Below are positions 41,428-45,803 of a stretch of 45,803 nucleotides of DNA, in pieces (the first letter of the stretch is position 1; the number at the start of each line of letters is the position of its first letter). Under the pieces are notes generated by a model. That model saw only the letters and a list, made by a program, of their open reading frames with translations, did no database searches and had not been told where the DNA came from. The position numbers were made by a program, and so were the translations under genes. The stretch is from Flavobacteriia bacterium. Lineage in GTDB: Bacteria > Bacteroidota > Bacteroidia > Flavobacteriales_D > Crocinitomicaceae. The stretch lies in the NCBI GenBank assembly GCA_947464135.1, contig CANHVK010000011.1, positions 1-45,803 on the forward strand, in the 5' to 3' direction.

Positions 41428-41847
41428 ATGAAAATAATTCATCTTTTAATATTTATGATTTCTATATGTAACCTGACTTCTGCTCAAACGGTAAGACATA
41501 GAGATCAGTATGGAGAGAAAATTTTCTTTATTGATGGAAATACCCTGCGAAGTAAAGATCAGTATGGTGCAAAGCTATTTTTTCAGGATGGGAATACGAT
41601 CAAAAGAAGAGATGTATATGGTGAAAAAGTGTTTTTTTTCGATGGAAATACAATTCGTTACAAAGATAGTTATGGTGAAAAATTATTTTTTTTCGAAGGT
41701 AAAACTATCCGTTCTAAAGATCAATATGGAGAAAAACTTTATTTTATTGATGGTCAGACATTAAAGTATAAAGACGCTTATGGTGATAAAATTTATTATT
41801 TTGAAGGTATACCTGAAAAATGGGTAATTATCTGCTTGATTAAGTGA
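41428..41847 (+). CDS. Small secreted protein of six 18-residue repeats
   Basis: I do not recognise this 139-residue protein by name. A signal peptide (MKIIHLLIFMISICNLTSAQ) is followed by six in-register 18-residue repeats from residue 23 to 130. The consensus is R-x-[KR]-D-x-Y-G-E-K-[LIV]-[FY]-F-[FI]-[DE]-G-x-T-[IL], seen in DQYGEKIFFIDGNTL and DSYGEKLFFFEGKTI. A nine-residue tail (KWVIICLIK) follows. The alternating pattern suggests stacked beta-hairpins, as in YD or choline-binding repeat proteins, but there is no clear match. It is separated from the symporter gene by 28 nt. Confidence 0.8.
   Translation: MKIIHLLIFMISICNLTSAQTVRHRDQYGEKIFFIDGNTLRSKDQYGAKLFFQDGNTIKRRDVYGEKVFFFDGNTIRYKDSYGEKLFFFEGKTIRSKDQYGEKLYFIDGQTLKYKDAYGDKIYYFEGIPEKWVIICLIK
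41494..41817 (+). repeat. Six 54-bp tandem repeats inside the 41428 gene
   Basis: The six 18-codon units span 41494-41817. Units differ in many third positions and in several amino acids, so they are an old duplication under selection on the protein, not a fresh slippage array. Confidence 0.75.
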
Positions 41848-44730: not shown

Positions 44731-45803
44731 ATGAAGAATTATCAATTTGTTTCTCTTGTGTTTCTTTTTTTATTCCATATAACAGGAATATCACAAATTG
44801 AAGTTCCTTTTTATGTTAAAACCGCTAATTACCACACAAAAAAATACGAATCAGGTATTTCTGTAAAAGCTTATCAAGATGATAAAATTGTAAGAAATTT
44901 ATCGTCTGATAACAAAGGAGATGTCGTATTATATTTACCTATAGGTGCTAAATATCGAATTGAAATATCAAAGCAAGGTAAAATAACTCGTTTTGTAAAT
45001 GTTGATTATTCTAAATTAAAAGATACTATTAAAGAAGAAGATGCTGACCCACGTGGTGAAGTAGAAATGTCTTTGTTTGATGATTTACCCGGAATAGATT
45101 ATAGTTTTGTTTTAGATAATCCAGCTACAAATTTCACATATGACCCTAATATTGGTGTTTTTTTTGATGAGCAATTAGCTCAAAAAACGATTAAAGAAGT
45201 TGATCGTTTATTAAATGTCATTCAAAAAGCAAAAATCGAGAATCAAAGGCTAGCTGAAGAAAAAATTCAGTTATCTAAAGAGCAGGAAGTAGCATATGAA
45301 GCTAAAATTAGAACAGATGAAATTATAGCAAGGGCTGAAGCTGAAGCTCTTAATAGATCAAAGCTTGAAAGTTCTCAAAAAAATATTGAGCCAAAAGTGA
45401 AAAATGAAGTCGCTGACAAAAAAGCGGATTCAGTAGCAGTAATTAGACAAGCTGAATTAAACAAAAAAGCTGAAGATAGGAAGGCTGATTCAATTTCAGA
45501 TGTAAAACAAGCTGAAATTGCTAAAATTGAAGAAATTGCGCGTAAAAAAATACAAGCAGAACTAGCTAGAAAAAAAGCGGAAGCAGATTCATTAGCAGCA
45601 ATTCGACAAGCAGAGATAAATCTTAAGAAATCCTTAGCAGATAGCTTATCAGCCCTTCGACAAGCTCAGGAGTTAGAAGCTCGTATAAAAGCAGAAGCGG
45701 ATAGTTTAGCGGAAGTAGCTCGTAAGAAAGTTGAAGCGGATAGTATAGCAGAATTAGCTCGTAAAAAGGCAGAAGCAGATAGTTTAGCGGAAGTCGCTCG
45801 TAA
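44731..45803 (+). CDS. Secreted coiled-coil repeat protein, cut by window end
   Basis: A 357-codon open frame that runs off the window, so the C-terminus is unseen. A signal peptide (QFVSLVFLFLFHITGISQ) is followed by a globular beta-like domain (residues about 20-160) and then a long charged coiled coil from about 160 on. The coiled coil becomes periodic, with repeated EADSLAEVARKK-like units (three perfect 13-residue units at the end). No family recognised; long Ala/Glu/Lys coiled coils near envelope exporters occur in scaffolding or adhesion proteins. It lies 132 nt after the MMPL gene. Confidence 0.78.
   Translation, partial: MKNYQFVSLVFLFLFHITGISQIEVPFYVKTANYHTKKYESGISVKAYQDDKIVRNLSSDNKGDVVLYLPIGAKYRIEISKQGKITRFVNVDYSKLKDTIKEEDADPRGEVEMSLFDDLPGIDYSFVLDNPATNFTYDPNIGVFFDEQLAQKTIKEVDRLLNVIQKAKIENQRLAEEKIQLSKEQEVAYEAKIRTDEIIARAEAEALNRSKLESSQKNIEPKVKNEVADKKADSVAVIRQAELNKKAEDRKADSISDVKQAEIAKIEEIARKKIQAELARKKAEADSLAAIRQAEINLKKSLADSLSALRQAQELEARIKAEADSLAEVARKKVEADSIAELARKKAEADSLAEVAR
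45688..45803 (+). repeat. 39-bp tandem repeats at the window end
   Basis: Units 45688-45726, 45727-45765 and 45766-45803 (the last truncated by the window edge) each encode K-[AV]-E-A-D-S-[LI]-A-E-[VL]-A-R-K. First and third units differ at only a few third positions, so the array may be recent and variable in length. Confidence 0.75.

Follow-up and report, generated by a model that had tools for sequence, protein, structure and literature searches.

The question raised by the open reading frame at 41428-41847 (+) is what family a protein built almost wholly of one 18-residue repeat belongs to, and what holds its six units alike. The frame lies in the window, by which we mean the whole stretch of DNA that was analysed (45,803 nucleotides of a Flavobacteriia bacterium contig). 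It has an ATG start, a TGA stop and 139 codons, and in the encoded protein a signal peptide is followed by six units of 18 residues each, with a short hydrophobic segment at the C-terminus. The features are as follows:

41428..41847, + strand: gene of 139 amino acids plus stop, almost certainly for a six-fold beta-flower protein (reading frame, relatives, low dN against high dS)
41428..41484, + strand: signal peptide, residues 1-19, probable cleavage between TSA and Q (read by eye)
41494..41547, + strand: unit 1, RHRDQYGEKIFFIDGNTL
41548..41601, + strand: unit 2, RSKDQYGAKLFFQDGNTI
41602..41655, + strand: unit 3, KRRDVYGEKVFFFDGNTI
41656..41709, + strand: unit 4, RYKDSYGEKLFFFEGKTI
41710..41763, + strand: unit 5, RSKDQYGEKLYFIDGQTL
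41764..41817, + strand: unit 6, KYKDAYGDKIYYFEGIPE, the last hairpin, leading into the plug helix
41818..41844, + strand: hydrophobic helix KWVIICLIK at the C-terminus, which probably plugs the channel of the barrel (DSSP, conservation and the description in PMC10584680)

The leader is hydrophobic, ends in TSAQ and, on inspection by eye, looks like a signal peptide of type I; a lipobox cysteine is absent. All full-length members of the subfamily start with a hydrophobic leader, which closes with [A/S/G]Q or the like. The proposal of the first-pass annotation that the protein is secreted is supported by this classical signal peptide. Residues 23-130 form six units of exactly 18 residues, i.e. 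108 of the ~119 mature residues, and residues 18 positions apart are identical at 55 of 101 positions (20,000 shuffles: mean 7.1, maximum 20). The description as strictly spaced, in-register units which fill nearly the whole mature protein is therefore correct. Units 1-5 share 50-72% protein identity, while unit 6 keeps less of the pattern and merges into the tail EGIPEKWVIICLIK, in which the Trp is invariant and the Cys nearly invariant in the subfamily alignment. The consensus given earlier, DxYGEK[LIV]FF[FI][DE]GxT[IL]R, fits overall, except that the corresponding stretch of unit 2 is YGAKLFF and that the GxT[IL]R end is missing from unit 6. On the DNA level the units are diverged, as had been described, with 48-70% identity from unit to unit; Tandem Repeats Finder reported 2.2 copies only.

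The window protein itself gave chance matches only against Pfam and NCBIfam, did not reach the model PF21786 (Bflower_3, ‘6-fold beta flower protein’) and had no match in a PDB sequence search; in this it differs from accepted PF21786 members. Fifteen of its 20 aligned relatives match PF21786 with E ≤ 0.01. In single scans the cut-off of 34 bits was passed by L011 (36.2 bits) and L021 (54.3 bits), both among the 20 aligned, and by L025 (145.3 bits), a more distant relative which is an accepted member. An hhalign comparison of the window subfamily with ten PF21786-type proteins gave a probability of 96 and an E-value of 2.7e-9 over 111 columns. As regards family and fold alone, the window protein is almost certainly a divergent member of PF21786. 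The first-pass annotation knew no family with this repeat, but the family already has a name; it is functionally uncharacterised, and the window protein is no orphan. Weak matches of relatives to PDZ, the suprabasin repeat and CopK were discarded as composition or repeat artefacts, since they were inconsistent between members and covered short stretches. As the PF21786 model misses part of a coherent subfamily, it could be widened.

The 6-fold beta-flower was named by Durairaj et al. 2023 (PMC10584680). The barrels described there are shallow; they have 8, 10 or 12 strands and are symmetric in a four-, five- or six-fold manner. One side bears long loops with a semiconserved [DNEQ]xxG motif, and the channel is often occupied by a C-terminal hydrophobic helix. 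The barrels are said to resemble the Tubby C-terminal domain (clan CL0395), with 1zxu used for comparison, and no function is demonstrated for them in the available part of the paper (PMC10584680).

The window protein shares with PF21786 the six hairpin units of ~18-20 residues, the [DN]xxG loop motif, the signal peptide, the hydrophobic C-terminal helix and the predicted 12 strands. In the window subfamily the units are 18 residues long and the loops read D-x-[YFW]-G, whereas the other PF21786 proteins sampled have units of 19-21 residues and loops of the G-x-S type. A related repeat, PF21785 (Bflower_2, 5-fold beta-flower), is matched weakly by 4 of the 20 members (best E-value 4.9e-6); it has five units, the window protein six.

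AlphaFold2, run with the 20-row alignment, predicted twelve strands plus a C-terminal helix for the window protein (pLDDT 89.3, pTM 0.82); DSSP places the helix at mature residues 111-118 (pLDDT ~92). In the model, each unit has a strand at positions 9-14 (KLFFxD), a tight turn (DGN) and a second strand from position 17 to position 1 of the next unit, and its long loop covers positions 2-8 (xKDxYGE). The [DNEQ]xxG motif appears as D-x-Y-G in all six units, within the DSSP loop segment. A model of the accepted member L025 has a matching strand and helix layout.

The conservation of the unit positions within and between genes was compared for 14 non-redundant genes. At position 6, where the aromatic residue preceding the loop glycine stands, the within-gene identity is 1.00 and the identity between genes is 0.30 (z 20): each gene has all Tyr, all Phe or all Trp, without exception in 20 genes. 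The within-gene identity also exceeds that of the same unit in other genes at position 4 (0.98 vs 0.73), position 5 (0.63 vs 0.13) and position 9 (0.60 vs 0.27). The strand positions 10, 11, 13, 17 and 18 behave in the opposite manner and are kept by unit across genes. On a family tree built without the loop positions 4, 5, 6 and 9, which is weakly resolved, the position-6 aromatic switched about six times, and, going by the starred branches, Phe and Trp each require two changes or more. All six loop aromatics thus appear to change together. No earlier record of the same aromatic in all six loops was found; this identity of the aromatic within each species is what is new here. Many other PF21786 members have mixed loops, hence the sameness is not demanded by the fold. 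Uniform loops of other kinds occur in further PF21786 genes, for example six times GNSTSYSKC in L049 and six times GDGTYSSNKVL in L095.

An explanation was drawn up on the computed features, which are the family, the topology, the fixed six-fold count, purifying selection and loop uniformity without DNA homogenisation. The protein would be exported and its signal peptide removed. The six 18-residue hairpins would form a shallow closed ring of 12 strands, and the conserved KWVIICLI segment, as a short hydrophobic helix, would plug the ring channel. On one rim the six long loops, D-x-[Y/F/W]-G with flanking K/R, would stand as a symmetric aromatic and charged crown, which may meet a partner as a six-fold symmetric surface; such a contact is suggested because the six loops are selected to be alike. 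In the periplasm, the likeliest partner would be a lipid headgroup or the surface of a membrane, or else a polymer of the envelope; the simplest reason why a surface should have to be symmetric would be that it binds a membrane, a lipid or an envelope polymer with repeating units. The closed ring, the position of the plug, the periplasmic location and the membrane or envelope binding are what we infer beyond the computed features. This chain of steps, from the exported plugged ring over the symmetric crown to an envelope or lipid partner, could equally well hold or fail as a whole. Binding through the crown, taken by itself and including the membrane or envelope as target, is a tentative reading. 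It is rather doubtful that the crown is also locked by symmetry, i.e. that the loops are held alike (Y6, F6 or W6) and the ring switches together when its target changes. If true, it would be a natural cyclic recognition module which binds a lipid or envelope component by six-fold avidity. An exported subfamily with symmetric loops in parallel Tyr, Phe and Trp versions offers a comparative set for finding the ligand of the fold.

The main rival to binding is internal packing as the reason for the likeness of the loops: around the ring, each loop would touch its neighbours, the aromatics would be matched in size and the crown would bind nothing. The lockstep switching between Tyr, Phe and Trp is then explained without a ligand, and positions 4 (D/N) and 9 likewise vary together. 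However, position 5 (K, R, S, Q, A or T) is homogeneous as well, with 0.63 against 0.13, and is not an obvious packing constraint, and the many PF21786 members with mixed loops presumably fold. Packing is accordingly regarded as somewhat unlikely, though a serious candidate.

Within-gene homogeneity is also a classic sign of concerted evolution, so that the sameness of the loops might come from gene conversion or repeated re-duplication of units rather than from selection. In the window subfamily, the codon identity between loops is 0.550, compared with 0.536 ± 0.017 when each gene's own synonymous codons are shuffled. At this null level, recent gene conversion is unlikely. The six loop arginines of L022 are encoded by CGG CGA CGC CGC CGT CGT and the six loop serines of L003 by TCT TCG TCT TCA TCT TCC, each set being spread over four codons, and at strand positions only a few codons distant each unit keeps its own residues from genus to genus. 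With scrambled synonymous codons in the loops and residues specific to each unit in the strands, the sameness was, judging from the sequences, probably selected and not copied. Other uniform-loop PF21786 genes have codon identities from the null level to moderately above it, as in L082 (0.56 vs 0.33 for the null), so some exchange between units is possible there. For the window subfamily, gene conversion was rejected by the codon tests, and we consider it very unlikely as the cause of the sameness. Six loop residues in lockstep without homogenisation of the DNA illustrate cleanly what appears to be selection for symmetry within a protein.

Whether the hairpins close into a ring or form an open solenoid was judged from structural comparisons. 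A Foldseek search of the window model against the PDB gave E-values > 0.05 throughout. The highest TM-score among the matches listed was 0.51, for 1zxu (Arabidopsis At5g01750; probability 0.72, E-value 0.59, 9% identity). The lowest E-values in the list belonged to CbpJ, CbpE and dextransucrase repeats, with TM-scores of 0.12-0.19 and an rmsd of ~13-17 Å. An open beta-hairpin solenoid which binds glycans, like the choline- and glucan-binding repeats of Gram-positive cell-wall proteins, would agree with this order by E-value and with the short aromatic hairpin repeats common to both. Nevertheless, the closed ring is favoured on the TM-scores. The choline- and glucan-binding repeats have variable copy numbers, while the window protein has a count fixed at six and a C-terminal helix; its family match is PF21786, and it has no choline-binding Pfam match. 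We regard the solenoid as highly improbable. Based on the fixed count, the C-terminal helix and the best listed TM-score, to 1zxu, the six hairpins probably close into a ring. The first-pass annotation had envisaged stacked beta-hairpins and proposed structure prediction; the hairpin units and a regular fold were found, but the open stack is probably wrong.

Like the Tubby C-terminal and LURP-one-related barrels (CL0395, 1zxu), the window protein would be a 12-stranded barrel around a hydrophobic helix. The Tubby barrel differs in that its strands are longer, it is circularly permuted and its helix enters differently (PMC10584680). In the search with a control model, 1zxu was absent from the best 50 Foldseek matches, and for this reason the modelled link to the Tubby clan remains weak. 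A search of a viral structure library gave nothing useful.

The gene is single-copy in its own genome. The search for relatives in Bacteroidetes, which had been proposed earlier, found them in 13 of 150 genomes of the same family, 16 of 299 genomes of the same order and 3 of 395 genomes of the phylum sample, the own genome being counted each time. The named records with relatives are Flavobacteriales or other Bacteroidetes metagenome assemblies. In the viral contigs, phages and plasmids searched, no relatives were found; nothing therefore points to a mobile origin. Exactly six 18-residue units and a tail of the same type, in which hydrophobic residues come after a Trp, are present in each of the 21 full-length subfamily genes that were read. 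Between close relatives (pairs L002/L004 and L005/L006), dN is 0.03-0.05 and dS 0.7-0.95; for the window gene and L002, dN is 0.18 and dS ~2. Since dN is far below dS between the close pairs, the protein is under purifying selection, and the comparison of species confirms the earlier statement that it has been kept by selection. That the frame is open by chance over repetitive DNA is refuted by the conservation of the protein, the low dN at high dS, the fixed length and the conserved tail, and the probability of this reading is practically nil.

Upstream, a sodium:dicarboxylate symporter gene (PF00375) lies 28 bp before the beta-flower gene, and downstream, the gene of an MMPL-family transporter (PF03176) follows after 117 bp. 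No conserved operon partner was found across genera; as the symporter and MMPL neighbours are not kept in other genera, the function is not derivable from the context. The Bacteroidetes promoter pattern is no more frequent in the window than expected by chance, and directly before the gene the + strand has no such site. Further downstream, at 44731-45801 (+), an exported protein with long alternating repeats rich in K, A, E, D and R (RKKAEADSLAEVA...) runs off the window end; it has no Pfam match. In L055, L056 and L058 (own genus) and in L067 (another family), the beta-flower gene comes next after the peroxidase gene katG and a divergent LysR regulator similar to OxyR. This neighbourhood occurs in two families of the order and is absent in the window; a link to oxidative stress is possible, as is chance.

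Several relatives depart from the common layout. L024 (G248, contig 113, 1432-1698, + strand) has three units between otherwise similar ends. This may reflect an in-frame deletion of 162 bp or a collapse in the assembly; should the short form be real, a pair of copies could make up one six-unit ring. L099 (G177, contig 84) and L098 (G171, contig 108), both of genus g43, are PF21786-type proteins with seven units of ~20 residues and possibly represent a seven-fold beta-flower, next to the four-, five- and six-fold forms already described. L013, L027 and L029 have six units of the type KDKKYGxxxFYxxGxEI and the tail LTRDQLxxLISII; they lack a signal peptide and so appear to stay in the cytoplasm. 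The gene is followed in L027 and L029 by that of a large protein, a predicted KAP-type P-loop NTPase (named by eye). L132 (G013, contig 2) combines a PF21786-type domain without signal peptide with a C-terminal extension of at least some 200 residues, and this fusion may reveal a partner function.
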